Part shown: positions 3 through 29,153 of the stretch, one piece after another | Position numbering within the stretch: the stretch's first letter is position 1 | How the letters are laid out: each line of letters starts with the position of its first letter | Assembly (NCBI GenBank): GCA_028687545.1 | Contig: JAQTZZ010000028.1 | Location: 1-55,144 of the forward strand | Length of the DNA: 55,144 bases | Direction of reading: 5' to 3' | DNA from: Candidatus Wallbacteria bacterium | GTDB taxonomy: Bacteria; Muiribacteriota; JAQTZZ01 | Notes under the pieces: model-generated | What the model was told of the DNA's origin: nothing | What the model saw: the letters and a program-made list of their open reading frames with translations, nothing else | Database searches by the model: none | Position numbers and translations under genes: made by a program

Positions 3-2420
3 TATTCAATCGATGGTATTACCTGGATTGCCACTGCCGCTGCAGCCTGGCCTGCCAGATATGGCCATTCCAGTTTGGTTTACGACAATAAAATGTGGGT
101 GATCGGCGGTTACAGCAGCGGCTATAAAAACGATGTCTGGTATTCCACTGACGGCTCAACCTGGAACAGTGCTGCTACCAGCGCTTCCTGGTCTGCGAGA
201 TACTGCCATTCCAGCCTGGTTTATGACGATAAAATGTGGATGATCGGCGGTTACGGCAGCAGTTACTATAATGACATCTGGTATTCATCCGACGGCGTGA
301 CCTGGACTCTGGCTGCCGACAATGCGGCCTGGGCTTCAAGATACAGCCAAGTCAGCCTGGTTTATGACGATAAAATGTGGGTGATCGGCGGCTATCACGG
401 CAGCTATTACAATGATGTCTGGTTTACAAGCACTTCTAATCCTGTCTCAACCCCTCTTTACATGACTACCAGCCCGCGGGTGTTCGAAACCCATCCCAAC
501 GGGACAGTGGAACTCAGGGATATCAGAAAAACCATCTTCTACAGCAACAATGCCACTCAGGAAGCAAACTCAGTCACTTATTCCGCCATCAGCGGCACAA
601 TCAGCGGAACAGTCTACACGGCACCTGCCGCAGCCGGAGCTGACACTCTGGAAATATCCTGCTCTGAAAACGGCAGAACTATCACTGCCCATTTAAAAAT
701 ATCCATCACCTGCCCGCTCTCTCTGGCTCTCAATCCCCAGACTCTCGGGATACCCACTGGGACAACCTATGAACTTTCAAATGTCAGAAAGACTGTCACT
801 TACAGCAGCAGCACAACTTTGGAAACCAGCGCTGTCAATTACGCCGTTTCCAGGGGATCGGTGAATGGAAGCTTATATACCTCTCCTGAATCGACTGGTA
901 CAGACACCATCGAGATCTCATACTCTGAATTCGGCATCTCAGTCAGTGCCCAATTGATCGTGACAGTCAGGGATCCCCTTTCTCTGGCTGCGAATCCGCA
1001 GACGCTCGAAATAGGCACAGACAGGACTTACGAACTCTCGGCAGTCAAAAAGACTGTTTATTTCAGCAACAGCACTACCCGGGAAGTGACAAATGTCAGC
1101 TGCAATGCTGTCAGAGGTTCCATCAGTGGAACTCTATACTCTGCCCCTGGTTCGATCGGCACTGATACCATCGAGATCTCCTACACTGAATTCGGGAAAA
1201 AAGTATCTATAGACTTGATTGTGACAAACAGCCTGGCCTGGATTCAGGCCACAGCGAATGCAGCCTGGGTCGCCAGAGATGCTCATCACAGCGTTGTCTT
1301 CAACGGCAGGATGTGGGTGATCGGAGGCTGGGATGATTATTATGCATTGAGAAATGAAGTCTGGTCTTCTGCAGACGGAATCAACTGGCAGCAGGCCACT
1401 TCAGAGGCACCCTGCATCGCAAGAGTCTTTCAGAGCAGCCTTGTCTTCAAAGACAAGCTCTGGGTAATGGGCGGCTGCAGTTACGCAAACTCCACCTATA
1501 CTAATTACAATGATGTCCAGTGCTCCACAGATGGAAAGAACTGGGTTCAGGCTACTGCCAGTGCGGCCTGGAGCCCGAGACGCAGCCAGAGCTGTCTGGT
1601 TTATGACAACAGGATGTGGGTGCTCGGCGGTCTGGATAACAATTCAACTTACCAGAACGACGTCTGGTATTCAGATGACGGAATAACCTGGATTCAGGCT
1701 ACTGCCAGCGCGGCCTGGAGTCCGAGAAGCCGCCAGACCATCCTGGTTTATGACAACAGGATGTGGGTAATCGGCGGATATGCCGCTGCTGCCTCTTATA
1801 ACGACGCCTGGTATTCGACGGATGGAGTGACCTGGATTCAAGCTACAGCTTCAGCCCCCTGGATTGGCAGAGGTTCCCACACCAGCCTGGTTTATGACGA
1901 TAAAATGTGGGTGCTCGGCGGTGATAACTCTTATAATGAAAACACAGTGGATTACGACATTAAGGAAAACGATGTCTGGTATTCCACTGACGGCGCAGCC
2001 TGGACCCAGGCCAACCTCCATGCTCCCTGGGCTGCCAGATGGTCACAGACCAGCCTGGTTTTTAATGACAAAATGTGGGTGATCGGCGGTTGGGACGGAA
2101 GTGACGATCGAGCGGATGTCTGGTCAGCGACCCTTTCCGCACCTGTCAAGACCCCGCTGTATATGACTACCAGCCAGCCGACTCTGGAAGTGCAGGCCGG
2201 CGGAAGCTATGACTGCAGCAATCTGCATAAGTGCGTTTATTATTCAGACAACAGTTCGCTCGAAGTGAGCAGTGTCAGTTACAATGCAGTGCTGGGCAGC
2301 TTCAATTCCAGCCCCAATTATACAGCACCGGCTGATTTCAGCGTAGATACGATTGAGATTATTTATACTGAAAGCAGCAGAACGATTACCACCCATGTCA
2401 TGGTCTATAAAACACCTTGA
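3..2420 (+). CDS. Kelch-repeat / Ig-like repeat protein, 5' partial
   Basis: The frame is open from position 3, so the gene starts upstream of the window; an internal TTG at 75 is not a credible start. The visible 806 codons contain three Kelch-type units (core K-M-W-V-I-G-G-Y, then N-D-V-W-Y-S-T-D-G), three Ig-like beta modules of about 85 residues (each with Y-x-x-P and D-T-I/L-E-I-S motifs), six more Kelch units and a final Ig-like module. Kelch units form beta-propeller blades that bind partners or glycans, and Ig-like modules usually act as spacers in exported proteins, so a surface or secreted location is inferred. No signal peptide can be seen because the N-terminus is missing. The stop lies only 11 bp before the upstream dyads of the next gene. 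Domain class is well supported; function is unknown. Confidence 0.85.
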   Translation, partial: YSIDGITWIATAAAAWPARYGHSSLVYDNKMWVIGGYSSGYKNDVWYSTDGSTWNSAATSASWSARYCHSSLVYDDKMWMIGGYGSSYYNDIWYSSDGVTWTLAADNAAWASRYSQVSLVYDDKMWVIGGYHGSYYNDVWFTSTSNPVSTPLYMTTSPRVFETHPNGTVELRDIRKTIFYSNNATQEANSVTYSAISGTISGTVYTAPAAAGADTLEISCSENGRTITAHLKISITCPLSLALNPQTLGIPTGTTYELSNVRKTVTYSSSTTLETSAVNYAVSRGSVNGSLYTSPESTGTDTIEISYSEFGISVSAQLIVTVRDPLSLAANPQTLEIGTDRTYELSAVKKTVYFSNSTTREVTNVSCNAVRGSISGTLYSAPGSIGTDTIEISYTEFGKKVSIDLIVTNSLAWIQATANAAWVARDAHHSVVFNGRMWVIGGWDDYYALRNEVWSSADGINWQQATSEAPCIARVFQSSLVFKDKLWVMGGCSYANSTYTNYNDVQCSTDGKNWVQATASAAWSPRRSQSCLVYDNRMWVLGGLDNNSTYQNDVWYSDDGITWIQATASAAWSPRSRQTILVYDNRMWVIGGYAAAASYNDAWYSTDGVTWIQATASAPWIGRGSHTSLVYDDKMWVLGGDNSYNENTVDYDIKENDVWYSTDGAAWTQANLHAPWAARWSQTSLVFNDKMWVIGGWDGSDDRADVWSATLSAPVKTPLYMTTSQPTLEVQAGGSYDCSNLHKCVYYSDNSSLEVSSVSYNAVLGSFNSSPNYTAPADFSVDTIEIIYTESSRTITTHVMVYKTP

Positions 2421-2431
2421 GGAGACTTTTA

Positions 2432-2465
2432 TTGCATCCCACAATCCAGACAGTGCAAAATGCAA
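2432..2465 (+). promoter_or_regulatory. Tandem activator-site dyads upstream of Tad-chimera gene 1
   Basis: Two 13-bp dyads of the form TTGC-N5-GCAA: TTGC-ATCCC-ACAA at 2432-2444 and GTGC-AAAAT-GCAA at 2453-2465, with centres 21 bp (two helical turns) apart. The second ends 44 bp before the GG of the -24 element, which puts the centres near -96 and -75. The same arrangement precedes three paralogs. By analogy with sigma-54 enhancers it is a binding site for an enhancer-binding protein; the protein is not identified. Confidence 0.7.
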
Positions 2466-2507
2466 TCTGCAATCCGTAAATTCCAGTCAACTGCAGGTTT
2501 CATGGAT

Positions 2508-2523
2508 TGGTATTACCTTTGCT
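2508..2523 (+). promoter_or_regulatory. Sigma-54 promoter (-24/-12), gene 1
   Basis: TGGTAT-N5-TTGCT has the invariant GG (2509-2510) and GC (2521-2522) separated by exactly 10 bp. The expected transcription start is near 2534. It is slightly less canonical (TGGTAT) than the three TGGCAT copies before genes 2-4. An AGTCAAC box at 2485-2491 aligns with TGTCAAC in the other copies. Confidence 0.8.
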
Positions 2524-2557
2524 GTTTAATATATAATTATCCTGTCAAGGAGGAATA

Positions 2558-5332
2558 ATGAAAATAAAATTCTATTTACTGAACAAAAAAGGCGTTTCCA
2601 TCGTGATTGTGGCCCTGTCCGTCGTTGTGCTCATGGGTATGGCGGCACTGGCGATTGACGTGGGCAATGCCTATATGCAGAAATCCACCCTGGACCAGGC
2701 AGCTCAGCTCGCAGCGCTCTCAGCAGCCCAGGCCATGAAAAACAGCAGCGACCCGGCAGTGATCCAGCAGAAAGCGCTGGACGTCTTCGCCCAGAACGGC
2801 CTGCCCACCGATCAGGCCGACATCACTGTGAATGTCACGAAAGGCACTGAAACAGCTTTCATTGACGCTCACCTGAATGTGCCGTTTTATTTTGCCAGAG
2901 TGCTCGGTTTCAACGATGTCTCGCTCAATTCGCAAGCCCTGGCTGAACTTTGCGCAGACGGCTCGGCTAAGCTGATCAAGGAAAACACTTACGATCTGGT
3001 ACCCTGGGGTATCCCGCACGGCAGAACTACCTATAACGCTACAGAACAGAAGCTTTACATCGACGGCACTGTGGCAGACAACTGGACCGAAAATTCGAGT
3101 TTCCAGTTCTACCAGGGATATGAATACCTGCTCAAACTGGGCCTGGGCCAGCCTGCTGACGCCATCGGCAGAAAAATCCTGATCCCCATGGACAGCACAG
3201 GCGACTGCAATCCGGCTGACGCCAATGACCCGATCTGTCCGGAGGTCGGCAGCCACGTGCAGGCTGACTTGATCAAAGCATACGGACTTGTTTACTGGTG
3301 CCTGCAGAATAATTACGCGGTGGACTGGCTGCTGGATTACAACGGCGGCTCTTACCTGGTGGATTACAATGACGCGATCCTCTCTGCCACCAGCGCTACC
3401 AGCCCCACTGTGAACTTCTCAAGCGTCAGCAAGATCACGCTTTCCGCAGCCCAGGCAGCCACGCTTTCCAACTGGCTAGCAGCAAACAACAGCAGCGAAG
3501 GCAGACCATATCAGATCGTGCATGTCACGAATTATCCGCAGGTGGCTGTTTACACGGCCAATGTCTATTCGCCTGCAGATCTCGTGCCCTGGGGTCTGGA
3601 AGACCAGGCTGCTGCCTATCCATTCGGCTATGTGGTCGGCAATCAGTACACTCTGAAATACGGCCCTGATCAGAGCCCCGCCAATTACGGACCAGGCAAT
3701 TTCGGAGCTCTCACCATGGTCGGCAACGGAGCCAATGATTACAGGAACGGCATAGCCAGCGGTGTCCCAAACCCGAACGGCGAGACCTGGTATGTAGGGA
3801 AGACGGTCTACACCAAGACAGGCAACATGGCCGGCCCCACCATCCAAGGCTTGTCGGACAGGCTGGCTGCAGGCAAAATCTACTGCAAGGTCCCTGTAGT
3901 AGACTCCATGGACATGAATGGTCATAGCTCCACCACTATCAAGGGATTCCTCAATTTCAAGATAAATTCGGTTGACTCCAACGGGAATTTCGTTTACGGC
4001 ACTCTGGTGGACAAGGTCCCGACAGACCAGCTCTCTTACACAGTCAATGAAGACAGCAACACCGAAGTAGTAGCTAAAGTGCTGAAACAGGCAGGAATAC
4101 CGTTTTCCTGGATCCACGACGCGGGTGTGATCGACGGCACGATCAACAATTACGACTGGCTCTACACACATCACGAGGATTTCCAGAATAACCTCGTGCC
4201 TGCCAAAATCGCCCAGTGGGTTTCTGCAGGACATTACTATTTTGACATGTGCTGGTCAACCGACCGCTTTGACAATGCTCTGGAAGACTATAATCATGAC
4301 ACATTCGGCACAACTACCTCACAGTATATCCCGCGCATGTTCTTCAATTCCTATTCCAGCAAGCAGTATTCGGCCTGCTACCGCTGCAGCAGCAGTTCAG
4401 GCAAAGATTGCGACGCCTGCCGCTACTCAGGCTGGGTCTGGGAATGGGTCAAACACACTGATGTCAACACTGACAACAATCCGACCTATTCTCTCAGTCC
4501 CAGGGACATCATGCAGACCCAGAATCACGTCACTACCATTCCTGCAGACGGCTCGCTCGGACGCACCAATGCTTTCAAGCTCACAAGCCTGATTTCAGCC
4601 CAGAACATCTATGCCAAGGATAATTCAGCTGCAGAGTACAAACTGGGGATCTACGAATATTTCAACTATAGCGGCACAAACTACGCCAAAGCGATGATCA
4701 GGGACTACAAGATCAATTCCACTGACCTGGGCGGAGTAGTCTGTTTCATGGGTGGGCATGATCCCTCCAACACTCCGGCTTATCGCCTGATTCTGAATAA
4801 TGTGATGGCCAGCTCCATTGCGCCGGCAGTCGCGAGGACCAGCCGCACCAATTACGGAGCTCTGGACATGGACAGTTCAGACGACGGCCTTACTGCTGAC
4901 TCAGGCGAATATCTGGCTAACATCGAATACGGTTACAAGTATTTTCTCGCACCAGGCGCGATCCTGGAAACCCTGCCCTACAACCTGCCTGAACAGACCA
5001 ACACAGGGGTAGCCTTCAATGTAGGATCAGACGCCAGCACCTGGAACAGCCATGCCACAGACAGCCAGAGAATAGTTTTGGTACCGATCGTGAGCATCAG
5101 GAACTCAGACAATTCCCTGACCTGCATCTCTCCTGACAACACTTCTCAAGCTCCCAAGAGCGTCTACGGCATTTATCAGAGAGATAAGGTCAGATTAAAG
5201 GGAATCGCCAAGTTCTGGCTGCTGGACGTGACCAAACCCGGCAGTTACGATTCCACACTGGGCCCGATCGAAAACGGTCAGGTGCGGGGAATTTTCCTAG
5301 GATATTACATCACGCCTGCGGATGCAAAGTAG
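2558..5332 (+). CDS. TadG-like / asparagine-synthetase-B-like chimeric surface protein, paralog 1
   Basis: 924 residues with an AAGGAGG site just before ATG. Residues 1-135 form a Tad-type N-terminus: K-K-G-V-S, a hydrophobic helix (about 16-36) and D-V-G-N-A-Y ... L-D-Q-A-A-Q-L-A-A-L. Residues 205-335 (I-L-I-P-M-D, K-A-Y-G-L-V-Y-W, D-W-L-L-D-Y-N-G-G-S) and 503-755 (H-H-E-D-F at 538, M-C-W-S-T-D at 564, T-Q-N-H at 654, G-G-H-D-P at 732) resemble the Bacteroidetes proteins labelled asparagine synthetase B. Between them (340-495) lies a TadG-type extracellular module (L-V-P-W-G, N-F-G-A-L, G-N-M-A-G-P-T, G-F-L-N-F), and a second copy ends the protein (760-924). Four cysteines (607, 610, 618, 621) form a DnaJ-like CxxC...CxxC knuckle. 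The likely location is membrane-anchored and outward-facing. No enzymatic activity should be assumed: the Ntn and PP-loop motifs of true AsnB are absent. Confidence 0.8.
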   Translation: MKIKFYLLNKKGVSIVIVALSVVVLMGMAALAIDVGNAYMQKSTLDQAAQLAALSAAQAMKNSSDPAVIQQKALDVFAQNGLPTDQADITVNVTKGTETAFIDAHLNVPFYFARVLGFNDVSLNSQALAELCADGSAKLIKENTYDLVPWGIPHGRTTYNATEQKLYIDGTVADNWTENSSFQFYQGYEYLLKLGLGQPADAIGRKILIPMDSTGDCNPADANDPICPEVGSHVQADLIKAYGLVYWCLQNNYAVDWLLDYNGGSYLVDYNDAILSATSATSPTVNFSSVSKITLSAAQAATLSNWLAANNSSEGRPYQIVHVTNYPQVAVYTANVYSPADLVPWGLEDQAAAYPFGYVVGNQYTLKYGPDQSPANYGPGNFGALTMVGNGANDYRNGIASGVPNPNGETWYVGKTVYTKTGNMAGPTIQGLSDRLAAGKIYCKVPVVDSMDMNGHSSTTIKGFLNFKINSVDSNGNFVYGTLVDKVPTDQLSYTVNEDSNTEVVAKVLKQAGIPFSWIHDAGVIDGTINNYDWLYTHHEDFQNNLVPAKIAQWVSAGHYYFDMCWSTDRFDNALEDYNHDTFGTTTSQYIPRMFFNSYSSKQYSACYRCSSSSGKDCDACRYSGWVWEWVKHTDVNTDNNPTYSLSPRDIMQTQNHVTTIPADGSLGRTNAFKLTSLISAQNIYAKDNSAAEYKLGIYEYFNYSGTNYAKAMIRDYKINSTDLGGVVCFMGGHDPSNTPAYRLILNNVMASSIAPAVARTSRTNYGALDMDSSDDGLTADSGEYLANIEYGYKYFLAPGAILETLPYNLPEQTNTGVAFNVGSDASTWNSHATDSQRIVLVPIVSIRNSDNSLTCISPDNTSQAPKSVYGIYQRDKVRLKGIAKFWLLDVTKPGSYDSTLGPIENGQVRGIFLGYYITPADAK

Positions 5333-5361
5333 GCGATTGTAAACATCAAATAATCAAAAAG

Positions 5362-5388
5362 GAGCGGCCGCAGGTGCCGCTCTTTTTT
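5362..5388 (+). terminator. Rho-independent terminator after paralog 1
   Basis: GAGCGGC (5362-5368) pairs perfectly with GCCGCTC (5376-5382) across a 7-nt loop and is followed by six T (5383-5388). It lies 30 bp after the stop, so paralog 1 is probably transcribed alone. Confidence 0.9.
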
Positions 5389-5426
5389 GATTCGCCTGGA
5401 TCATCGAGTGAGGTTTATAGGTTCAT

Positions 5427-5500
5427 ATGTTGGTATGTGAGTATGTTTAGAAAGTTTTTCCAAAACCTGCCAACATACTAACTTACTAACTTACCAACTT
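5427..5500. repeat. Octamer inverted-repeat element A
   Basis: The left arm (5427-5447) is built of degenerate 8-bp units GTTGGTAT/GTGAGTAT. The right arm (5470-5500) carries the reverse complement units (CCAACATAC, TAACTTAC, TAACTTAC, CAAC). A loop of about 22 bp separates them. This is one of five such elements in the window, all in intergenic DNA. It sits between the terminator of paralog 1 and the regulatory module of paralog 2. Confidence 0.75.
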
Positions 5501-5545
5501 CTTACAGCGTATTCGCGATTGTTGAATAATTATTCTAATCCCTCT

Positions 5546-5579
5546 TTGCATCCCACAATCTATGCAATGCAAAATGCAA
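5546..5579 (+). promoter_or_regulatory. Tandem activator-site dyads upstream of Tad-chimera gene 2
   Basis: TTGC-ATCCC-ACAA (5546-5558) and ATGC-AAAAT-GCAA (5567-5579), with centres 21 bp apart. The second dyad ends 44 bp before the GG of the -24 box. Spacing is identical to that before gene 1. A TGTCAAC box follows at 5599-5605. This fills the 339-bp gap between paralogs 1 and 2 together with the terminator, repeat element A and the sigma-54 promoter. Confidence 0.7.
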
Positions 5580-5621
5580 TCTGAAGCTCATGAATCCGTG
5601 TCAACAGTCAGTTTCAGGGAT

Positions 5622-5637
5622 TGGCATTCCTTTTGCT
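5622..5637 (+). promoter_or_regulatory. Sigma-54 promoter (-24/-12), gene 2
   Basis: TGGCAT-N5-TTGCT with GG at 5623-5624 and GC at 5635-5636, 10 bp apart, as required for RpoN. The predicted start is near 5648, giving a leader of about 24 nt that contains the AAGGAGG ribosome site at 5661-5667. Confidence 0.85.
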
Positions 5638-5671
5638 TTTCATTATATAATTGACATTTCAAGGAGGAGTG

Positions 5672-8443
5672 ATGAAAATAAAACCCGGCTCGCTGAACAA
5701 AAAAGGCGTTTCCATTGTGATCGTAGCCCTGTCCTCAGTTGTGATCATGGGCATGGCTGCCCTGGCAGTCGACGTAGGCAATGCTTATATGCAGAAATCC
5801 ACCCTGGACCAGGCTGCGCAGCTCGCAGCCCTCTCTGCAGCCCAGGCCATGAAAAACAGCAATGACCAGGCAGTGATCCAGCAGAAAGCGCTGGATGTTT
5901 TTGCCCAGAACGGTTTACCCGTTGATCAAGCCCATATGACGGTGAATGTTACGAAAGGCACTGAAACAGCCTTCATCGATGCTCATCTGACTGTACCGTT
6001 TTATTTTGCCAGAGTGCTCGGATTCAGCGATGTCACGCTAAATTCCCAGGCACTGGCTGAACTATGCGCAGACGGCTCGGCTAAGCTGATCAAGGAAAAC
6101 ACTTACGATCTGGTTCCCTGGGGAATTCCACATGGGAAGACTACTTACAATTTCAACGAACAGAAACTTTACATCGACGGCACTCTGGCCGACAACTGGT
6201 CCGAGAATTCCGGCTTTGCTTTTAATCCAGGCAGCGAATACCTGCTGAAGCTTGGTGAAGGCCCGCTGCCTGACCAGCAGGGCAGGAAATACCTGATCCC
6301 GATGGATGGCGGTGAGGATGCGAACCCCAAGGATGCAGTGGACCCGATCTGCCCGGAAGTAGGCAGCCATTCCCAGTCGCAGCTTCTCAAGGCCTATGGC
6401 CTGGTCCACTGGTGCCTGCAGCAGCATTACGCGGTAGACTGGCTGCTGGATTACAACGGCGGCTCATACCTGGTGGATTACCATTCAGGCATCGACACGG
6501 CAGTCTCAAGTAATGGAGTTTCCTTCTCTTCTGTGAACAAGATCCTGCTGACAGCAGCGCAGGCCAGACAGCTCACGGATTTCCTGGCTGCGAATCAGAA
6601 CAGTGAAAACAGATCATACACTGTTGTGCACATGACCAGACCCATCAACTACGCAGTATTTACGCCATTCGAATATTCCTGCGGCGACCTGATGCCTTGG
6701 GGACTGCAGTATAAAACCAACACCTACCCGTTCGGCTATCAGTTCGGGGCACAGTACACACTTAAATATGGTTCCGGAGCAGGCGAGACAGGTTATGGTG
6801 GCGGCAACTGGGGAGCCCTGGCCATGGGAGCGAACGGTGCGAATCAGTATCGCGACAATATCGAATATGGTGTTGACGACATCCTCCATGGTGTGGAGAA
6901 TCCTAACGGAACAGTCTATTATGTCGGAAGAACCATCGACACTGAGCCGGGCAACATGGTGGGTCCTACCATGCAGGGCCTGACGGATCGTATCACCCAG
7001 AACAAACTTTATGTGAAAATCCCTGTGGTCACCACTCTGGACGTGAACGGCCGCAGCGCCACCACCATCATGGGATTCCTCAATTTCAAGCTCAATTCAG
7101 TGGACTCTCAGAAAGGGTGGGTCTATGGGACGCTCGTAGATAAAATCCCGGTAGACCAGCTTACGCATACTGTGAATGAAAACGAAAACGAGGTAGTGCC
7201 GGCTAAAGTGCTCAAAATGGCCGGAATCCCATACAACTGGATCCACGACGACGGAGTGCTGAACGGGACGATCAATAATTACCAGTGGATCTCCACCAGC
7301 CACGACGATTTCTACGACGAAAATGTTGCCGAGAAGATCGCGGAATGGAACGCAGGCGGCCGCTATTTCTTCAATCTCTGCTGGTCAACCCTGAGATTCG
7401 AGAACGCGCTCTGCGTATACAACCATAGAAACTTCGGGACAGAAACTCAGAACTACATTCCTGGAGCCTTCTTCCAGACCTACAGCGAACCCCAGTATTC
7501 CCACTGCTACCGCTGCAACGCCTCAGGCGCCAACTGCGACGCCTGCCGCTATACAGGCTGGGTCATCGAATATGTCAAGCATGACGACATCAACAATGAA
7601 TCAGTCGCCAATTACACGCTCTCCCCGCACGATATTTCACTCAACCAGGATCATGTGGCCACAGTCAATGCAGACCCGTCATCCGGGCGGGTTCAGGCCT
7701 TCAATGTCAACAAGCTTCTTTCAGACTGCCAGGTCTTTGCGAAGAACAATTCGGCAGCAGGCTACAACCAGGTGATTACCGCTTATTCCAGCTCCTCTGT
7801 TGCCAAGGTCGTTTCCAGGACATACAAGATCCATAACACAGATCTGGGCGGAGTGATGACATTCATGGGCGGCCATGATCCGGGCAATGATGCTGGTTAC
7901 AGACTGATCCTCAACTCCTGCCTGGCCGGCACTCAGACAGCACTCCTCACCACAGTGGCCCGGACAAATTACGGCGCTCTGGACATGGATGCTGCGCTGG
8001 AAGCGGGTGATCCGGATGAATACCTTGCCAACATCAAATACGGCTATAAATATCTGCTGACTCCAGGACAGGTCGTGGACACCCTGCCTGGCAATTTCCC
8101 TGAGCAGACCAACACTGGAGTGGCTTTCAACATGGGTACAGACGCAGGCACCTGGAACAGCCATGCCACAGACAGCCAGAGAATAGTCCTGGTGCCGATC
8201 GTGAGCACGAAAAATTCCGACAATGCTCTGATCTGCACCTCTACTGACAACGTGGCACATCCCCCGGCAGGCATCTACAGCATCTATCAGAGGGACAAGG
8301 TCAGGTTGAAGGGCATCGCCAAGTTCTGGCTGCTCGATGTGACACAGCTCAATTCGTATGATGCGACCCTCGGACCCCTGGAAAATGGCCAGGTGCGCGG
8401 AATCTTCCTTGGGTATTACATTCCCCCTGCTGATGCGAAATAG
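5672..8443 (+). CDS. TadG-like / asparagine-synthetase-B-like chimeric surface protein, paralog 2
   Basis: ATG 5672 is chosen because AAGGAGG lies 4 bp upstream; a TTG at 5651 would precede the ribosome site. The 923-residue architecture matches paralog 1: Tad N-terminal helix, split AsnB-like domain, nested TadG module and a final TadG module. The first 150 residues and much of the C-terminus are nearly identical to paralog 1, but the central body matches paralog 4 (G-R-K-Y-L-I-P-M-D-G-G-E-D, W-S-T-L-R-F). The H-H-E-D-F motif reads S-H-D-D-F, while the conserved cysteine (L-C-W-S-T) and G-G-H-D-P remain. The CxxC...CxxC knuckle is present (C-Y-R-C ... C-D-A-C). It has its own promoter and terminator. 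Exported and membrane-anchored by inference; function unknown. Confidence 0.8.
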   Translation: MKIKPGSLNKKGVSIVIVALSSVVIMGMAALAVDVGNAYMQKSTLDQAAQLAALSAAQAMKNSNDQAVIQQKALDVFAQNGLPVDQAHMTVNVTKGTETAFIDAHLTVPFYFARVLGFSDVTLNSQALAELCADGSAKLIKENTYDLVPWGIPHGKTTYNFNEQKLYIDGTLADNWSENSGFAFNPGSEYLLKLGEGPLPDQQGRKYLIPMDGGEDANPKDAVDPICPEVGSHSQSQLLKAYGLVHWCLQQHYAVDWLLDYNGGSYLVDYHSGIDTAVSSNGVSFSSVNKILLTAAQARQLTDFLAANQNSENRSYTVVHMTRPINYAVFTPFEYSCGDLMPWGLQYKTNTYPFGYQFGAQYTLKYGSGAGETGYGGGNWGALAMGANGANQYRDNIEYGVDDILHGVENPNGTVYYVGRTIDTEPGNMVGPTMQGLTDRITQNKLYVKIPVVTTLDVNGRSATTIMGFLNFKLNSVDSQKGWVYGTLVDKIPVDQLTHTVNENENEVVPAKVLKMAGIPYNWIHDDGVLNGTINNYQWISTSHDDFYDENVAEKIAEWNAGGRYFFNLCWSTLRFENALCVYNHRNFGTETQNYIPGAFFQTYSEPQYSHCYRCNASGANCDACRYTGWVIEYVKHDDINNESVANYTLSPHDISLNQDHVATVNADPSSGRVQAFNVNKLLSDCQVFAKNNSAAGYNQVITAYSSSSVAKVVSRTYKIHNTDLGGVMTFMGGHDPGNDAGYRLILNSCLAGTQTALLTTVARTNYGALDMDAALEAGDPDEYLANIKYGYKYLLTPGQVVDTLPGNFPEQTNTGVAFNMGTDAGTWNSHATDSQRIVLVPIVSTKNSDNALICTSTDNVAHPPAGIYSIYQRDKVRLKGIAKFWLLDVTQLNSYDATLGPLENGQVRGIFLGYYIPPADAK

Positions 8444-8477
8444 ACCGACAGATACCGTAGGATTAAGACTGAATTAT

Positions 8478-8501
8478 GGGGTGCCTGCAGCGCCCCTTTT
8501 T
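8478..8501 (+). terminator. Rho-independent terminator after paralog 2
   Basis: GGGGTGC (8478-8484) pairs with GCGCCCC (8490-8496), with one G-T pair and a 5-nt loop, followed by five T. It is 34 bp after the stop. A similar flank (GACTGAATTA, then a GGGTGC hairpin) follows paralog 3 at 11541-11571, where the stem is weaker and only three T follow. Confidence 0.8.
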
Positions 8502-8564
8502 CCTGCCTGAGATTCTTAGCTTGTTGCTGCCGTTAATTACGATTCTATGCATTCGTGGCAATCA

Positions 8565-8598
8565 TTGCATTTAGCAATCCGAGTTTTGCAAAATGCAA
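8565..8598 (+). promoter_or_regulatory. Tandem activator-site dyads upstream of Tad-chimera gene 3
   Basis: This is the cleanest copy: TTGC-ATTTA-GCAA (8565-8577) and TTGC-AAAAT-GCAA (8586-8598) are both perfect dyads with centres 21 bp apart, ending 43 bp before the -24 GG. TGTCAAC follows at 8618-8624. The 314-bp gap between paralogs 2 and 3 otherwise holds the terminator, the sigma-54 promoter and a leader of about 92 nt. Confidence 0.75.
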
Positions 8599-8639
8599 TT
8601 GTGCGCCTGAAAAATCCTGTCAACAACGCGATTTATGAT

Positions 8640-8655
8640 TGGCATTCCTTTTGCT
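8640..8655 (+). promoter_or_regulatory. Sigma-54 promoter (-24/-12), gene 3
   Basis: TGGCAT-N5-TTGCT with GG at 8641-8642 and GC at 8653-8654 (10 bp apart). The predicted start near 8666 leaves a leader of about 92 nt, longer than for genes 1 and 2, and of no recognised structure. Confidence 0.85.
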
Positions 8656-8757
8656 TAAATTAACAATTGAGTTTGGTAATTTTGATATAAGTATAATTTA
8701 ACATAAGCCTTCTCTTTGTCCAGACTCAAATTTTGTCATGTGCTGCGGGAAGGCTTT

Positions 8758-11511
8758 ATGAAAATTATAAAACTTTTTTTTCTATCGAATCGAAAAGGCA
8801 TCTCAACAGCATTAGTGGCTATTTGCAGCCCGCTGCTCTTAGGCATGCTGGCTCTCGCCCTGGATGTAGGCAATGCCTATATGCACAAATCGGCGCTGGA
8901 CCAGGCTGCGCAGCTGGCAGCCCTCTCAGCTGCCCAGACCATGAAAACCAGCATCGACCAGGAAGTGATCAGGCAGAAAGTTTATGACATCTTCGCCCAG
9001 AACGGCCTGCCTACCAATGACAACCTCACCGTCAATGTCACAGAGGGGTCGGAAACAGTTCTGGTAGAAGCACGGATGAAGGCAGGATTTTTCGCCACTC
9101 TGTTCGGATTCAGCGACATCACAATCAATTCACAGGCTCTGGCCGAACTCTGCGTTGACGGTACAGCCCGCCTGATCAAGGAAAACACATACGACTTCAT
9201 GCCTTGGGGCATTCCGCATGCAAAAGCATCTTACAATGCCGAGGAAAAGAAAATGTATCTGGACGGCATACCAGCTGATTCCTGGAACGAAAACTCAGCC
9301 TTCGCATTCCAGAAAGGCAGTGAGTATCTGCTGAAACTCGGTTGGGGCCAGCCTGCGGATTCCATCGGCAGGAAAATCCTGATCCCAATGGACAGTACGA
9401 ACGACTGCATTCCGACTGACGCCGATGACCCGATCTGCCCTGAAGTCGGAAGCCATGTCCAGGCAGACCTGATCAAAGCATACGGCCTTATTTACTGGTG
9501 TACGAGAAACAATATCCCGATAGACTGGATCCTGGATTACAACGGCGGTTCTTTCATGGTTGATTACAATCCGGCGATCCTTTCTGCAGTCAGTTCCACA
9601 GGCGTAAGCTTCAGCGGGGTCAGCAAGATCGTCTTAACAGGGGATCAGGCAGCTGCTCTTTCCAACTGGCTGGCTACTCACAACAACAGCGAAGGCAGAG
9701 TTTACAAGATTGTGCGTGTGAGCATGTATCCCAATATTGCTGTTTTCACAGCCAATGTTTACTCTCCGGCAGATCTGATGCCCTGGGGTGTGCAGACCAA
9801 CGGCATTAATACCTATCCATTTGGCTATTCACTTGAAATGGACTTTACTCTTCCCTATGCCACCGGGGCAAGCAACTGGGGTGCCCTGGAACTGGGCGGG
9901 ACAGGAGCTGACCAGTATCGCGACAACATCATGTATGGTGCAGGCAATCCGGACGGCAATAACTGGTATGTGGGAAAGTCGACGTATACCAAAACCGGAA
10001 GCATGGCAGGCCCTACCTTGCAAGCCCTGCAGTACCGCATCGACAACAATAAACTATACGTGAAACTCCCTGTGGTCAGCATCCTGGACGTCAACGGCAG
10101 AAAAAGTACCATTATCAAAGGATTCCTGAACTTCAAAATCAATGCCACAGACTCAGCCAATGGTACGATCAGCGGCAGATTCGTGGACAAAGTACCCACT
10201 GATCAGCTTTCCTACACCACCAACGAAGACATCAACAACACGATCGTGGCCAAAGTACTCATACAGGCAGGAATTCCATTTTTCTGGATCCACGATGCAG
10301 GAATACTCGACGGCGACCTCAACAACTTCGACTGGCTCTATTCCCATCACGAGGATTTTCAAAACAACAATATCCCGGCAGCTATTGCCCGCTGGGTATC
10401 GAGAGGCCACTATTTTTTCAACATGTGCTGGTCCACTGACCGCTTTGACAATGCTCTGGAAGACTATAACCATGATACCTTCGGCACCGACACATCCCAA
10501 TACATTCCCCTGATGTTCTTCAAGTCCTGTTCCGCCAAGCAATACTCTGTCTGCTACCGCTGCGGCAACGGCAAAAACTGTGACGCCTGCCGTTATTCAG
10601 GCTGGGTCTGGGAGTGGGTCAAGCACGAAGATGTCAACACTGATTATAATCCGTCTTACACCATCAGCCCCAAAGACATCATGCAGACCCAGAATCACGT
10701 CTCCTCAATCCCGGCCGACGCCATGATCGGACGCACTCACGCTTTCAAGCTCGGAAGCCTGATCCCTGCCCAGAACTACTACGCTAAAAATAATTCCGCA
10801 GCAGACTACAATCGGGGTATTTACGGTTACTTTACATACAGCAGCATAAATTACGCCAAGAATATGATCCGGGATTACAAGATCAATCCCGATGATCTGG
10901 GCGGGATAGCCTGTTTCATGGGCGGACATGACCCGGCTTCTGGCAGCATAAATATTCCCGCTTACCGGATGATCCTCAATAATGTAGTCGCCAGTTCCAT
11001 CTCCCCTGCAACTTTCAAGACCTCCCGCACCAATTACGGCTCATTGGACCTCGATTCAGAGGATGAAGGGCTGGACACTGACAATAATGAATACTTAGCA
11101 AGCGTCAAATACGGCTATAAGTATCTGCTCACGCCGAACACGCTGGTGCATACCCTGCCCCTTAACCTGCCGGAAGATACCAATGCCGGGGTATGCTTCA
11201 ATGTCGGCAATGACGCCAACACCTGGAACAATTACCCGATTGACAGCCCTCGAGTAATCCTGGTGCCGATTGTCAGCACCAGAACAGCGGACAACATGCT
11301 TGTCACTACTTTGGACCCAGCCAATGTCGATCAACAACCCAGGAGCATCTACAGCATTTATAAGCGCGATCTGGTCAGGATCAAGGCTGTAGCCAAATTC
11401 TGGCTGCTGGACGTGACCAGACCAGGCAGTTACGATTCCACACTGGGCCCGATCGAAAACGGCCAGGTGCGCGGGGTTTTCCTCGGCTACTATATCCCGC
11501 CGGCTGACTGA
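8758..11511 (+). CDS. TadG-like / asparagine-synthetase-B-like chimeric surface protein, paralog 3
   Basis: ATG 8758 follows GGGAAGG and gives an N-terminus that aligns with the other paralogs; an in-frame start at 8716 would add 14 unmatched residues. The 917-residue protein has a Tad helix (N-R-K-G-I-S start), split AsnB-like domain, nested TadG module, CxxC...CxxC knuckle (C-Y-R-C-G-N-G ... C-D-A-C) and a final TadG module. Body motifs (D-S-T-N-D-C, S-H-H-E-D-F, M-C-W-S-T-D-R-F, G-G-H-D-P) match paralog 1, while the N-terminus is closer to paralog 4. It ends two codons earlier than paralogs 1 and 2 because of a TGA at the conserved terminus. Function unknown. Confidence 0.8.
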   Translation: MKIIKLFFLSNRKGISTALVAICSPLLLGMLALALDVGNAYMHKSALDQAAQLAALSAAQTMKTSIDQEVIRQKVYDIFAQNGLPTNDNLTVNVTEGSETVLVEARMKAGFFATLFGFSDITINSQALAELCVDGTARLIKENTYDFMPWGIPHAKASYNAEEKKMYLDGIPADSWNENSAFAFQKGSEYLLKLGWGQPADSIGRKILIPMDSTNDCIPTDADDPICPEVGSHVQADLIKAYGLIYWCTRNNIPIDWILDYNGGSFMVDYNPAILSAVSSTGVSFSGVSKIVLTGDQAAALSNWLATHNNSEGRVYKIVRVSMYPNIAVFTANVYSPADLMPWGVQTNGINTYPFGYSLEMDFTLPYATGASNWGALELGGTGADQYRDNIMYGAGNPDGNNWYVGKSTYTKTGSMAGPTLQALQYRIDNNKLYVKLPVVSILDVNGRKSTIIKGFLNFKINATDSANGTISGRFVDKVPTDQLSYTTNEDINNTIVAKVLIQAGIPFFWIHDAGILDGDLNNFDWLYSHHEDFQNNNIPAAIARWVSRGHYFFNMCWSTDRFDNALEDYNHDTFGTDTSQYIPLMFFKSCSAKQYSVCYRCGNGKNCDACRYSGWVWEWVKHEDVNTDYNPSYTISPKDIMQTQNHVSSIPADAMIGRTHAFKLGSLIPAQNYYAKNNSAADYNRGIYGYFTYSSINYAKNMIRDYKINPDDLGGIACFMGGHDPASGSINIPAYRMILNNVVASSISPATFKTSRTNYGSLDLDSEDEGLDTDNNEYLASVKYGYKYLLTPNTLVHTLPLNLPEDTNAGVCFNVGNDANTWNNYPIDSPRVILVPIVSTRTADNMLVTTLDPANVDQQPRSIYSIYKRDLVRIKAVAKFWLLDVTRPGSYDSTLGPIENGQVRGVFLGYYIPPAD

Positions 11512-11550
11512 AAGTAGACGATCAAGTAAAACAAGATTGAGACTGAATTA

Positions 11551-11573
11551 CAGGGTGCTTCTTCACCCCTGTT
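11551..11573 (+). terminator. Weak terminator-like hairpin after paralog 3
   Basis: CAGGGTG (11551-11557) can pair with CACCCCTG (11564-11571) with one bulge, followed by only three T. Its position matches the better terminator after paralog 2, so it is probably a degenerate version. The rest of the 318-bp gap to paralog 4 holds the dyads and the sigma-54 promoter. Confidence 0.4.
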
Positions 11574-11637
11574 TCCAGCCTGAAACCCTCAATTTAGCGC
11601 TATCATTAATTTCGATTCGTGGCAAACGAAGCAATTA

Positions 11638-11671
11638 TTGCATTTCACAATCCAGACTATGCAGAATGCAA
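11638..11671 (+). promoter_or_regulatory. Tandem activator-site dyads upstream of Tad-chimera gene 4
   Basis: TTGC-ATTTC-ACAA (11638-11650) and ATGC-AGAAT-GCAA (11659-11671), with centres 21 bp apart, ending 44 bp before the -24 GG. TGTCAAC follows at 11691-11697. Conserved spacing with diverged surrounding bases points to selection on the sites. Confidence 0.7.
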
Positions 11672-11713
11672 TGTTGAAGGCTGAAAACTGTGTCAACCGC
11701 GGGATTCAGGGAT

Positions 11714-11729
11714 TGGCATTCCTTTTGCT
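11714..11729 (+). promoter_or_regulatory. Sigma-54 promoter (-24/-12), gene 4
   Basis: TGGCAT-N5-TTGCT with GG at 11715-11716 and GC at 11727-11728 (10 bp apart). The predicted start is near 11740, giving a leader of about 90 nt before the ATG at 11830. Confidence 0.85.
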
Positions 11730-11829
11730 TTTAATTTAACAATTATAGTTTAGCTAATGTGCAGCCACCGCAGGGCACAGACCTTCTGACAGGCCAGACT
11801 TGTCCGTTATCATGCATAAGGAGGGGTTC

Positions 11830-14604
11830 ATGAAAATCAAAAGTCCAGATTTTTTGTCGAACAGGAAAGGCATTTCCACGGTTGTGATTGCCCTCCTCTC
11901 CCCGTTCCTCCTGGGCATGGTAGCTTTAGCAGTAGATGTGGGCTATGCCTATATGCAGAAATCCACTCTGGACCAGGCTGCTCAACTCGCCGCTCTTTCA
12001 GCGGCACAGACCATGAAAACCAGCGATGACCCGGCAGTGATCAGACAGAAAGTGCTGGATGTCTATGCTCAAAATGGGCTGCCTGCAAGCGACAATCTTG
12101 TAATAACAGTCACTAAAGGAGCTGAGACAGTCTTCATCGACACAAATCTGAAAATGACTTACAATTTCGCCAAAGTCCTCGGTTTCAACGACGTATTGCT
12201 CAGAACCCAGTCCCTGGCGGAACTGTGCGCAGACGGCTCGGCCAGGCTGATCAAGATGAGCACATACGATCTGATGCCTTTCGGAATCCCGCACGGCAGG
12301 GCAGCCTTCAGCTGGGACGGAAACACCCTGTACATCGACGGTTCGCTTGCCGAAAGCTGGAACGAAAATTCGTCCTTCAGATTCAATGTCGGCAGCGAGT
12401 ATCTCCTGAAACTCGGGGAAGGCGCATCTCCGGATCCGCTGGGCAGGAAATACCTGATTCCGATGGACGGCGGCGAAGACGTCACCCCCAAGGACGCCCA
12501 AGACCCGGTCTGCCCGGAAATCGGCAGCCACACCCAGGCGCAGCCGCTCAAAGCCTATGGCCTTGTCCACTGGTGCCTGCAGCACAGATACACAGTGGAC
12601 TGGCTGCTGGACTATAACGGCGGTTCCTATCTGGTGAATTACCATCCTGATATCGATACTGCTGTTTCGACCAATGGGGTCTATTTCTCTGATGTGAGTA
12701 AGATTCTACTGACAGCGGAACAGGCTCAGCAACTGATGGACTACCTGGGAGCGAACCAGAACAGCGAAGGGAGAGCATATGGCCTGATTCATCTGACCAA
12801 GCCCATGAATTATGCGGTTTACACACCATTCATGTATTCAAACGCGGACCTGATGCCCTGGGGGCTGGTGAACAAAACTGCAGACTATCCCTTCGGTTAC
12901 CAGTTCAATGTCCAATATACGCTCAAGTACGGTTTTGACGCGAACGTCTCAGGCGACACTGAAGCCAGGTGCGGAGCTCTGGTGATGGGCTCTACAGGAG
13001 CCAGCCAGTACAGGAGCAATATCGCCAATGGAGTCAGTAATTTCAAGCAGAACACCGACGGCACGACAGGCGTCCTGTATTATGTGGGAGAAGTCCTTCA
13101 GACTGAGCCGAACAACATGCTGAACCCAACCAAGCAGGGCCTGCAGGACCGCCTGGCAGCCGGCAAATTTTATCTGGAACTCCCGGTGGTTACTACTCTG
13201 GATACGAACAGCACCGTCGAAACCACGATTGTGGGATTCATCAACTTCATGCTCAGCGGAGTGGATACGGCGCACGGCTATGTGTATGGCCAGTTCGTGG
13301 ATACCATTCCCAGGGACCAGCTCACCTATACCCTGAACATTGACGAAAATGACGTGATTCCTGCCAAAATGCTGAAAATGGCCGGAATCCCCTATTCCTG
13401 GATCCACGATACTGACGTGCTGAACGGCAATATCAGCAATTACCAGTGGATAGCCTGCTCACACACTGATTTCTTCAACGAGAATGTGCCTGAAAAAATC
13501 GCGGAATGGGTGGCTGGCGGCCATTACTTTTTCAATCTCTGCTGGTCCACCCTGAGATTTGACAACGCTTTAACTCAATATAACCATAATACCTATGGGA
13601 ACAATTCACAGAGCTACGTCCCATCCGCCTTTTTTCAGTCCTACAGCACGATCCAGACCTCCAAATGCCCGTTCTGCAAGAATCATCCTGGTTCCTCCTG
13701 CGACGCCTGCCGCAACACAGGCTGGGTCCAGGAATACGTCAAATACACGGATGTGGACAACGACGCCCTGAGCAATTACACTCTCTCGCCGCGCGACATA
13801 CCGCTCAACCAGGACCATGTTACAGTAGTCCCGGCTGACCTGACCGCAGGCAGAGTCCAGTCTTTCAAAACAAGCGGCCTCTTATCATCCTGCCAGGTTT
13901 TCGCGAGTAACAATTCACCTGCCTATCGCCAGGTGATCACAGCTTATCCGAGTTCCTCGGTAGCCAAAGTCGTCTCCAGGACTTATAAAATCCATGACTC
14001 AGATCCGGGCGGTGTGATGACGTTCATGGGAGGCCATGATCCGGGGAATGCAGCAGGCTACAGGATGATGCTCAATTCCTGCCTGGCCTGCGCAGAGTCC
14101 CCGCTCATCAGTGCTGCAATCCGTACTGATTTCGGAGCACTGGACATGGATTCAGTCCTGGAAACAAGTGACCCTGAGGAATATCTCGGCAACGTGAAAT
14201 ACGGCTATAAATACCTGCTGACTCCAGGACAGATCGTGGACACCCTGCCGGGCAATCAGCCTGATAAAACCAATACAGGCGTGTTTTTCAATGTCGGTTC
14301 AGATCACCATACCTGGAACAATTATCCGATCGACAGCCAGAGAGTTGTGCTGGTGCCTATTGTAAGCACGAGAACTCCAGACAGTCTGCTGACCTGCATA
14401 TCTCAGCCGAATATAGACTCCCCGCCGAGAAGCATTTACAGCATCAACCAGAGAGACAAGGTCAGGATCAAGGGAATCGCCAAATTCTGGCTGCTCGATG
14501 TGAATCAGTGGAGTTATTATGATATGTACCTGGGTCCCCTGACAAACGGACAGGTGCGTGGAATCTTCCTCGGCTATTTCATTCCGCCTGTAGATGGGAA
14601 ATAA
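11830..14604 (+). CDS. TadG-like / asparagine-synthetase-B-like chimeric surface protein, paralog 4
   Basis: ATG 11830 follows AAGGAGG at 11818-11824; an upstream in-frame start at 11800 precedes the ribosome site and is rejected. The 924 residues have the same layout as the other paralogs. The N-terminus resembles paralog 3, while the central body (L-I-P-M-D-G-G-E-D, K-A-Y-G-L-V-H-W, L-C-W-S-T-L-R-F) matches paralog 2. The H-H-E-D-F motif is C-S-H-T-D-F, G-G-H-D-P is kept and the knuckle reads C-P-F-C ... C-D-A-C. It is the last of the tandem set and faces a convergent minus-strand gene across a palindrome. Confidence 0.8.
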   Translation: MKIKSPDFLSNRKGISTVVIALLSPFLLGMVALAVDVGYAYMQKSTLDQAAQLAALSAAQTMKTSDDPAVIRQKVLDVYAQNGLPASDNLVITVTKGAETVFIDTNLKMTYNFAKVLGFNDVLLRTQSLAELCADGSARLIKMSTYDLMPFGIPHGRAAFSWDGNTLYIDGSLAESWNENSSFRFNVGSEYLLKLGEGASPDPLGRKYLIPMDGGEDVTPKDAQDPVCPEIGSHTQAQPLKAYGLVHWCLQHRYTVDWLLDYNGGSYLVNYHPDIDTAVSTNGVYFSDVSKILLTAEQAQQLMDYLGANQNSEGRAYGLIHLTKPMNYAVYTPFMYSNADLMPWGLVNKTADYPFGYQFNVQYTLKYGFDANVSGDTEARCGALVMGSTGASQYRSNIANGVSNFKQNTDGTTGVLYYVGEVLQTEPNNMLNPTKQGLQDRLAAGKFYLELPVVTTLDTNSTVETTIVGFINFMLSGVDTAHGYVYGQFVDTIPRDQLTYTLNIDENDVIPAKMLKMAGIPYSWIHDTDVLNGNISNYQWIACSHTDFFNENVPEKIAEWVAGGHYFFNLCWSTLRFDNALTQYNHNTYGNNSQSYVPSAFFQSYSTIQTSKCPFCKNHPGSSCDACRNTGWVQEYVKYTDVDNDALSNYTLSPRDIPLNQDHVTVVPADLTAGRVQSFKTSGLLSSCQVFASNNSPAYRQVITAYPSSSVAKVVSRTYKIHDSDPGGVMTFMGGHDPGNAAGYRMMLNSCLACAESPLISAAIRTDFGALDMDSVLETSDPEEYLGNVKYGYKYLLTPGQIVDTLPGNQPDKTNTGVFFNVGSDHHTWNNYPIDSQRVVLVPIVSTRTPDSLLTCISQPNIDSPPRSIYSINQRDKVRIKGIAKFWLLDVNQWSYYDMYLGPLTNGQVRGIFLGYFIPPVDGK

Positions 14605-17008: not shown

Positions 17009-17720
17009 CAGCACCTTCCGGGTAATAAGCTGCTATTTCCTCAGTATAAACGCTTTTTTCCTGGTAAACAAATAATGGTGGCCTGACCGTCAATCCAGCT
17101 CCGCCGTTTTTGATGCTCTCCATCAGCAGTCTCCCGGCCGGCAATCCGGCCCGTGGATGAATGAAACGGACCTGCTTTGGCTCCAGGGAGTGTTCGCGCA
17201 AAGTTTCCATAATCTGCGCCAGTCGTTCCGTTTTGTGGATGAACACGAATCTGCCCCGATTTTTCATCAATTTCCCGGCAGCCATGCAGAAATCTCCGAA
17301 GCTGCCAAAACGCTCCACTCTGGAGACGCGTTTATTTTCAGCTGCAGGAGCAGGGGCACCGGATTCGGCCTGGAATGGTGGATTTGCCAGCACCAGATCG
17401 AATTTCCCGTTAAATTCCGGCGGCAGCTCCCGGAAATCCATCCCTAAGATGGAAATCTCCCCCGAGAGATCGTTCAATTCAATTGTCTTCCTAAGATATT
17501 TCAAGGCAAGCTTATCCCTTTCCACTCCGGTTAATTTCAGACCTCTGCGGCGGAGGTAGACAAGGAGCAGCACTCCTCCGGTACCGGAACCGAGTTCAAG
17601 TACGGACATCCCGGGTCTCAGGGCCGGAAAATTGGCGAGCAGTACACTGTCCTCGTTCAGGCAGAAAACTTCCCTGCCCTGAACTATCCGCATGTTTCCG
17701 GCCAGTCTGTCAATTCTCAC
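17001..17720 (-). CDS. TrmN6-like tRNA adenine-N6 methyltransferase
   Basis: 239 residues from a GTG start. Class I S-adenosylmethionine fold: motif I L-E-L-G-S-G-T-G-G near residue 42 and the N-P-P-F motif of adenine-N6 methyltransferases near 120, plus late R-F-I-H-P and R-L-L-M-E signatures typical of the YfiC/TrmN6 family. That family modifies A37 of tRNA1(Val) in E. coli; the substrate here is inferred. The gene overlaps the end of the DUF1385 gene by 11 bp and the start of the phosphodiesterase gene by 8 bp, so the three are translationally coupled. A PrmC-type glutamine methyltransferase would normally show N-P-P-Y. Confidence 0.85.
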   Translation of the reverse strand: MRIDRLAGNMRIVQGREVFCLNEDSVLLANFPALRPGMSVLELGSGTGGVLLLVYLRRRGLKLTGVERDKLALKYLRKTIELNDLSGEISILGMDFRELPPEFNGKFDLVLANPPFQAESGAPAPAAENKRVSRVERFGSFGDFCMAAGKLMKNRGRFVFIHKTERLAQIMETLREHSLEPKQVRFIHPRAGLPAGRLLMESIKNGGAGLTVRPPLFVYQEKSVYTEEIAAYYPEGADA

Positions 17721-18582: not shown

Positions 18583-18648
18583 TTAAGCTCCATCGATAAA
18601 TTTTTTCCAGAAAAGTCATGTGCTCCTATCGGATAAATTTCCAGTTTG

Positions 18649-18657
18649 TGTTAAAAT
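18649..18657 (+). promoter_or_regulatory. Extended -10 promoter of the fifth Tad-chimera gene
   Basis: TGT-TAAAAT matches a TGn extended -10 (5 of 6 in the hexamer), with AGGAGG at 18667-18672 and ATG at 18677. No sigma-54 motif and no TTGC dyads are present, unlike paralogs 1-4, so this copy is probably controlled by the housekeeping sigma factor. Confidence 0.5.
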
Positions 18658-18676
18658 ACAAAATTCAGGAGGTTCT

Positions 18677-28829: not shown

Positions 28830-28845
28830 TGGCATCAATATTGCT
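28830..28845 (+). promoter_or_regulatory. Sigma-54 promoter (-24/-12) in the intergenic region
   Basis: TGGCAT-N5-TTGCT, with GG at 28831-28832 and GC at 28843-28844 (10 bp apart), is identical in its fixed bases to the promoters before paralogs 2-4. No open reading frame starts close by; the predicted start near 28856 leads into a strongly structured RNA. Confidence 0.75.
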
Positions 28846-28992: not shown

Positions 28993-29075
28993 AGAAGCTG
29001 TTAAGCCGAACGAAGTGAGGCTTTACAGCTTCTTAACCCCCGGAGCAAAAGCCAGAGCTTTTGCGAAGTGGGGTT
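28993..29075 (+). other. Pair of hairpins between the candidate RNA and nhaC
   Basis: AGAAGCTGTTAAGCC (28993-29007) pairs with GGCTTTACAGCTTCT (29019-29033) at 14 of 15 positions. Directly after it, AACCCC (29035-29040) pairs with GGGGTT (29070-29075), enclosing GCAAAAGC (29045-29052) with GCTTTTGC (29057-29064). The loops share a CGAAGTG motif. They could be a repeat element or a structured leader of nhaC. The rest of the 501-bp gap (28653-28829) holds an AGAAC/GTTCT hairpin at 28651-28671 and AT-rich DNA with no gene. Confidence 0.55.
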
Positions 29076-29132
29076 CCAACCCGAATCACCCCAACTATCT
29101 TTTCCCTGCTGGATTATCCTGGCTGTTTGTTT

Positions 29133-29138
29133 TATAAT
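29133..29138 (+). promoter_or_regulatory. Possible -10 box of nhaC
   Basis: TATAAT 15 bp before ATG 29154, with GGAGG between them. No convincing -35 or TGn extension, so this is tentative. Confidence 0.35.
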
Positions 29139-29153
29139 TTCTACGGAGGCCTC

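Follow-up and report, generated by a model that had tools for sequence, protein, structure and literature searches.

Tandem TadG/AsnB-like genes compared with known tip pilins

The Tad pili of Myxococcus contain large minor pilins whose variable heads form interchangeable tips, with four Kil tips per genome, and this arrangement has been proposed to be general for TadG-like proteins (PMC12075869). In CpaL, a TadG ortholog, the von Willebrand factor A (vWA) domain is split by a β-rich insert (PMC12607857). Modular pilins are widespread; one of them, PilB of Streptococcus, is a type IV pilus pilin (IPR012902) to which a vWA module is joined at the C-terminus through a short linker (PMC8179133). 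Here, we describe a tandem array of four genes in Candidatus Wallbacteria (genome size 4.54 Mb, 97% complete), the products of which combine a Tad pilin N-terminus with an asparagine synthetase B (AsnB)-like domain. The analyzed stretch, referred to below as the window, is the whole of contig C28 (JAQTZZ010000028.1; 55,144 nucleotides). We consider that these chimeras are probably a paralogous family of modular, TadG-type minor pilins belonging to a Tad pilus; they would provide alternative tips, would have been diversified by recombination, and would be controlled by sigma-54 in a manner resembling the PilS–PilR system.

The Wallbacteria proteins share with TadG, KilN, and CpaL a Tad N-terminus, a large C-terminal head, the presence of TadE-type partners and tad genes, and the occurrence of several copies per genome (PMC12075869, PMC12607857). 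Their putative α/β domain is interrupted by a putative β-rich insert, as is the vWA domain of CpaL (PMC12607857). In contrast to those proteins, the head is AsnB-like rather than of the vWA or KilN type, it interrupts one TadG-like domain and is itself interrupted by another, and several of the genes follow one another directly, each with a sigma-54 promoter of its own. Streptococcus PilB is similar in that a functional module is grafted onto a pilin module for display on a filament (PMC8179133), whereas the Wallbacteria proteins are of the Tad type, with nested internal insertions and an AsnB-like module for which the searched Pfam copy holds no signature. A first-pass annotation of the window had stated that no described system fuses these parts; this holds for the TadG/AsnB-like pair, for which we found no paper in the literature searched, but not more generally, because large modular tip pilins of the TadG/KilN/CpaL kind have been described (PMC12075869, PMC12607857). 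The nested design and the tandem regulated array are unusual, yet they fall within the modular TadG-type tip pilins and do not constitute a new kind of system.

Nested domain architecture of the chimeric proteins

The four tandem genes of the same architecture and about 920 codons noted in the first-pass annotation are confirmed as real: they span 2558–14604 on the forward strand and are 917–924 codons long (gene 1, 2558..5332, 924 amino acids [aa]; gene 2, 5672..8443, 923 aa; gene 3, 8758..11511, 917 aa; gene 4, 11830..14604, 924 aa). Genes 2–4 are 57–68% identical to gene 1 across their full length, and the Tad N-terminus PF13400 was detected in all four products above the Pfam cut-off (E = 1.5e-8 to 6e-8). 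At least six related chimera genes are present in the genome, including a divergent fifth paralog in the window (gene 5, 18620..21241, forward strand; 38% identity), the open reading frame (ORF) of which opens with GTG at 18620 and contains an ATG at 18677 after AGGAGG, and a further, sixth copy (83% identity), which is carried by contig C14. Gene 5, the upstream element shared by the array, and the TadG-like nature of residues 338–502 had been overlooked in the earlier reading.

Sub-profiles built from the six paralogs were run against all fetched loci. When the two AsnB-like halves of gene 1 (residues 205–337 and 503–758) were joined, they aligned with ten standalone proteins of approximately 420 aa over 307 columns (HHalign probability 100, E = 3e-47, 33% identity); the boundaries expected earlier, about 205–335 and 503–755, were almost the same. 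Residues 338–502 aligned with a composite of residues 133–204 and 759–924 (HHalign probability 98.3, E = 1.4e-14). Therefore, a second TadG-like domain is nested in the AsnB-like domain, which is itself nested in an outer TadG-like domain, and the architecture read from these alignments is Tad pilin N-terminus, first part of a TadG-like domain, AsnB-like domain enclosing the second TadG-like domain, and the rest of the first TadG-like domain. The fusion of a Tad N-terminus to a split AsnB-like domain was thus borne out by PF13400 and the profile alignments; the homology of the body to AsnB-like proteins also stands, but not its reading as a single unit, because two nested insertions were found.

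In gene 1, the Tad pilin N-terminus (residues 1–132; 2558..2953, forward strand, as are all the following segments) consists of a long hydrophobic helix followed by strands. A prepilin-like Gly in NKKG-VSIVIVALS precedes the hydrophobic stretch and is a predicted cleavage site, and a helix at residues 10–62 was found in the AlphaFold2 model, in the better part of a poor prediction (pLDDT 45.8). The outer TadG-like domain is encoded at 2954..3169 (residues 133–204) and 4832..5329 (residues 759–924), with support from both HHalign and the phylum-wide profile matches. The AsnB-like domain occupies 3170..3568 (residues 205–337) and 4064..4831 (residues 503–758), and its second part contains the HHEDF, C565, QNH, and GGHDP motifs and a CxxC pair. 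The inner TadG-like domain (residues 338–502; 3569..4063) enters the AsnB-like domain after the VAVYT strand. No vWA match was found in the fused proteins with Pfam at E values up to 1, which sets them apart from vWA-type TadG proteins such as CpaL. If the head is built in this way, a pilus head can be assembled by nesting whole domains within one another.

Tad machinery and homologs across the phylum

The absence of TadA, TadB, and TadC genes from the window, correctly noted earlier, does not argue against a pilus, because the genome encodes a Tad system on other contigs. Contig C8 encodes CpaB/RcpC, a secretin, CpaE, CpaF/TadA, and a T2SSF protein (TadB/C-type) together, two Flp pilins are present in the genome, and an A24 prepilin peptidase and TadE are encoded on C14.

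Homologs in family f4 place the fusion within tad loci. These TadG–AsnB proteins of 900 aa have an AsnB-like domain (profile match, E = 5e-56) with only cysteine-rich loops and no inner domain, and their genes directly follow two TadE genes, with TadB and TadC nearby: the order at L065 is TadB, TadC, TadE, TadE, and chimera according to Pfam, and the same order was recognized at L072 and L073 from gene order. A TadG-type context, either TadE with prepilin peptidase or a tad locus, was found at C14, at the sister-genus locus L019, and at L065, and genes 1–4 would share it through their probable connection with C14. The pilus association proposed earlier as a possibility is upheld as probable by the machinery in the genome, the TadE and peptidase genes on C14, and the f4 tad loci, and a search of related genomes recovered both the conserved locus order in the sister genus and the tad context in f4.

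Other members of the phylum contain different combinations of the same parts. Tad proteins of f4 without an AsnB-like domain (negative in HHalign, probability 0.2) have the inner domain, and it is inserted at the same point (E = 2.7e-32), the insertion of the inner domain within the AsnB-like domain was seen in f1 and f2, including one f2 protein with both domains, and the Tad/AsnB-like proteins of f8 (L060, L061, L062, L063, and L064; approximately 1900 aa) contain an insert of approximately 1100 aa with TIG domains inside the AsnB-like domain. One phylum therefore holds apparent intermediates: the standalone AsnB-like protein, the pilin with only the AsnB insert, the pilin with only the inner domain, and the pilin with both. 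The order of the insertion events suggested by these observed states, not by a tree, is accordingly provisional. A scan of genome contigs with narrow peptide patterns gave matches in a single further genome with a name, that of Candidatus Wallbacteria STB_16 (same family, the nearest named relative), and there were no matches in viral contigs and plasmids.

Sigma-54 promoters and a candidate regulator

Each of genes 1–4 is preceded by its own −24/−12 element, as had been proposed, at 2508..2523 (TGGTATTACCTTTGCT) for gene 1 and at 5622..5637, 8640..8655, and 11714..11729 for genes 2, 3, and 4, respectively (TGGCATTCCTTTTGCT in all three; all forward strand). Only five strict matches to TGGYAY-N5-TTGCW occur in the window, of which four are these promoters; no sigma-54 element was found at the promoter of gene 5. 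Upstream of each promoter lies a 34-bp element, a putative upstream activating element, TTGCATNNNNNAATC..TGCANAATGCAA, located on the forward strand at 2432..2465 (gene 1, TTGCATCCCACAATCCAGACAGTGCAAAATGCAA; 42 bp from the −24 box), 5546..5579 (gene 2), 8565..8598 (gene 3), and 11638..11671 (gene 4). This element has exactly four copies in the entire genome, all at these promoters and at a constant distance of 41–42 bp from the −24 box, whereas the reversed pattern has none. In the genome as a whole, the core of the element, TGCAWWWTGCA, is present at 11 sites. It precedes genes 1–3, differs by one base at gene 4, and, as a shorter form of the element, also precedes the C14 chimera and the C14 operon encoding the A24 peptidase, TadE, a kinase, and a sigma-54 regulator. 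The six remaining sites are mostly within coding sequences, with no sigma-54 element found nearby. One copy of this core lies in the coding sequence of a 2362-aa protein (L098:1874-8962); close to its N-terminus, this protein has NTIPLKQGWNLISLGVQP, similar to how the C14 Kelch protein begins. The claim that most of the genes are followed by a terminator applied only to genes 1 and 2: a hairpin followed by a T-run is clear in the sequence at 5362..5382 (forward strand; listed on the opposite strand in the hairpin scan) and an intrinsic-terminator-like hairpin is located at 8478..8496 (forward strand), whereas no clear one follows genes 3 and 4, and the total number of hairpins in the window equals that in shuffled sequences.

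In pilus systems of the PilS–PilR kind, pilin genes are placed under sigma-54 control by a membrane kinase and an NtrC-type regulator. On C14, the genes are arranged in the order A24 prepilin peptidase, TadE, histidine kinase, sigma-54 response regulator, and sixth paralog, and RpoN is encoded in the genome, so that a −24/−12 element, RpoN, an activator gene, and a repeated upstream element at a fixed distance, the features of a sigma-54/NtrC-type regulon, are all present. The sister-genus locus L019 has the same order (A24 peptidase, TadE, kinase, and a regulator 68% identical to that of C14) followed by two chimeras, one of which carries a sigma-54 element together with an upstream element resembling that of the array; the two chimeras are followed by YmdB/HD-GYP, methyltransferase, and DUF1385 genes, as after gene 4 in the window. 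C14 and the window are probably one locus, because both are broken within a Kelch gene and their synteny agrees with L019. The most economical reading is that the C14 kinase–regulator pair switches on the array, with direct regulation suggested by the shared element. The pair resembles PilS–PilR in that a membrane kinase and an NtrC-type regulator are encoded alongside pilin genes and in that the promoters are of the RpoN type with upstream elements; it differs in that it would drive Tad-type tip genes. The term PilSR-like refers to these shared features. The nitrogen- or stress-type regulation proposed earlier found no support and was rejected, because the likely activator is this PilSR-like pair encoded with pilin genes. 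No paper linking Tad with sigma-54 control in such an arrangement was found in the literature.

Two further sigma-54-related features were observed in the window: a second sigma-54 response regulator gene at 27288–28652 and a good sigma-54 element, TGGCATCAATATTGCT, at 28830–28845, upstream of a Na+/H+ antiporter-family gene (29061–30857).

Mosaic divergence of the array members

Identity between array members differed markedly along their length. For genes 1 and 2, identity reached 89% over the pilin part and fell to 55–63% over the AsnB part; for gene 1 and the C14 copy, it was 93–98% over the AsnB part and 63% over both the pilin and the inner part. Third codon positions gave the same picture: for genes 1 and 2, the pilin part had a value of 70 and the first AsnB part one of 44, and for gene 1 and the C14 copy, the values were 50 (pilin) and 51 (inner) vs 87 (first AsnB part). 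In trees of the individual domains, genes 2 and 4 paired for the AsnB part with 100% support, and genes 3 and 4 paired for the pilin part with 97%. The simplest cause of this mosaic pattern would be recombination between array members.

Identity of the AsnB-like domain

The AsnB-like domain is asparagine synthetase B in name only. No Pfam or NCBIfam family, including the asparagine synthetase and class II amidotransferase models, matched the fused domain or the standalones; the assignment was therefore rejected, and no known enzyme family was matched in its place. Solved relatives were likewise not found by sequence for the chimeras, nor any meaningful ones for the standalones, so that this is a large conserved domain family with neither a curated model nor a solved relative. 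A standalone relative is encoded in the same genome (L011:4792-6060; 422 aa) and has a signal-peptide-like start and no pilin part. The standalones are homologous to the joined halves over their full length, and the HHEDF, MC, and GGHDP motifs are common to both; they differ from the fused copies in having neither a pilin part nor an insertion, and in that most retain the Glu of GHDPED, which the fused copies lack. The standalones have kept the HHED, Cys, QNH, and GGH motifs, and so have most of the fused proteins in f1 and f4. Exceptions are L078 and L069 of f4, which have lost the Cys and other motifs, and gene 5, in which the conserved Cys, HHED, GGHD, and the CxxC pair are missing.

In the predicted secondary structure, C565 immediately follows a strand and is in turn followed by a helix (strand residues 356–360 and C361 in the second AlphaFold model, pLDDT 54.0). 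Foldseek searches with the models gave no significant match (best E = 0.096, unspecific); the non-significant matches of the pLDDT 54.0 model included the ThuA-like structures 1t0b (E = 0.46, root-mean-square deviation 3.2, 74 columns) and 2gk3, and CTP synthase, which have class I amidotransferase-like folds. Enzymatic activity is possible, in that the conserved Cys and His motifs would allow catalysis.

Possible roles of the chimeras and alternative explanations

In the proposed mechanism, the prepilin-like N-terminal helix would be processed by the A24 peptidase, and the chimera, together with partners of the TadE type, would be inserted at the tip of the pilus, so as to present a distal head in which a β-rich TadG-like domain holds the AsnB-like α/β domain and this in turn holds the second TadG-like domain; such a head may bind a ligand or act catalytically. 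The array would supply alternative, swappable heads diversified by recombination between paralogs, and the C14 histidine kinase and NtrC-type regulator would bind upstream at the TTGCA..TGCAA elements and thereby turn on the RpoN promoters jointly. This would extend the idea of interchangeable Tad tips to an uncultured phylum, with a dedicated regulon that can be tested. Several observations weigh against it: no exact sequence overlap between C14 and the window was found, the main tad locus is on a different contig from the array, it would be unusual for low-abundance tip subunits if four proteins of 100 kDa each had a separate promoter that looks strong, the two AlphaFold models, built from 8-row alignments, are poor (pLDDT 45.8 and 54.0) and settle neither a pilin-tip nor an AsnB-like fold, and incorporation into a pilus is deduced from sequence.

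The tandem promoters would also suit abundant surface proteins, and we considered that the chimeras might be membrane-anchored or secreted, with the Tad-type signal used for export only and the AsnB-like part acting as a cell-surface hydrolase or binder unrelated to pili. The signal-peptide-like standalone relative without a pilin part and the Kelch surface proteins on either side of the array fit this explanation, which we nevertheless regard as improbable, given that TadE and the A24 peptidase are encoded in the same locus and, judging by the upstream element, are probably co-regulated, that the f4 homologs sit in the tad operon, and that both TadG-like domains, inner and outer, are of a type that also occurs in Tad proteins without an AsnB-like domain. 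If the chimeras are pilus tips, the head itself may be either active or inert. That it is a catalytically dead scaffold, with the heads acting purely as adhesins like the vWA-type TadG proteins, is a serious possibility, although it falls somewhat short of an even chance: motifs are lost in several paralogs, the AsnB-like domain accepts variable inserts (the inner TadG-like domain in f1 and f2, and the TIG-containing insert in f8), and vWA heads provide a precedent (PMC8179133, PMC12607857), but a scaffold would not need the strongly conserved putative active-site residues seen in most copies. It appears unlikely that the head is an active enzyme, a cysteine amidohydrolase or amidotransferase-like one, which the pilus would deliver to surfaces that it contacts; the motifs retained in the standalones and most f1 and f4 copies, the Cys after a predicted strand, and the weak Foldseek matches point towards it, whereas the loss of the Cys and other motifs from gene 5, L078, and L069, the missing Glu of GHDPED in the fused copies, the failure to match any known enzyme family, and the unspecific best Foldseek match (E = 0.096) speak against it. 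A broader version, in which several families of one phylum have enzyme-tipped Tad pili whose active cysteine-dependent head was captured from a standalone secreted protein, through two successive insertions, as a recombining cassette under one sigma-54 two-component switch, is doubtful. Modular TadG-type tip pilins remain our preferred reading of the array.

Neighboring genes

Kelch surface proteins flank the array. At 3..2420 on the forward strand, the window holds the final portion of a large surface protein with Kelch repeats, which is probably part of the gene cut at the end of C14 (L010:7824-9602), the two likely being the ends of one gene, which would link the array to the C14 regulator and the sixth paralog. 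Downstream of gene 4, the gene at 14663–17014 encodes a fusion of a YmdB-like phosphoesterase with GAF and HD-GYP-type domains, and its position beside the array is kept in the sister genus. Farther along the window, the gene at 37072–39210 encodes a DUF3160 protein (E = 6e-181).

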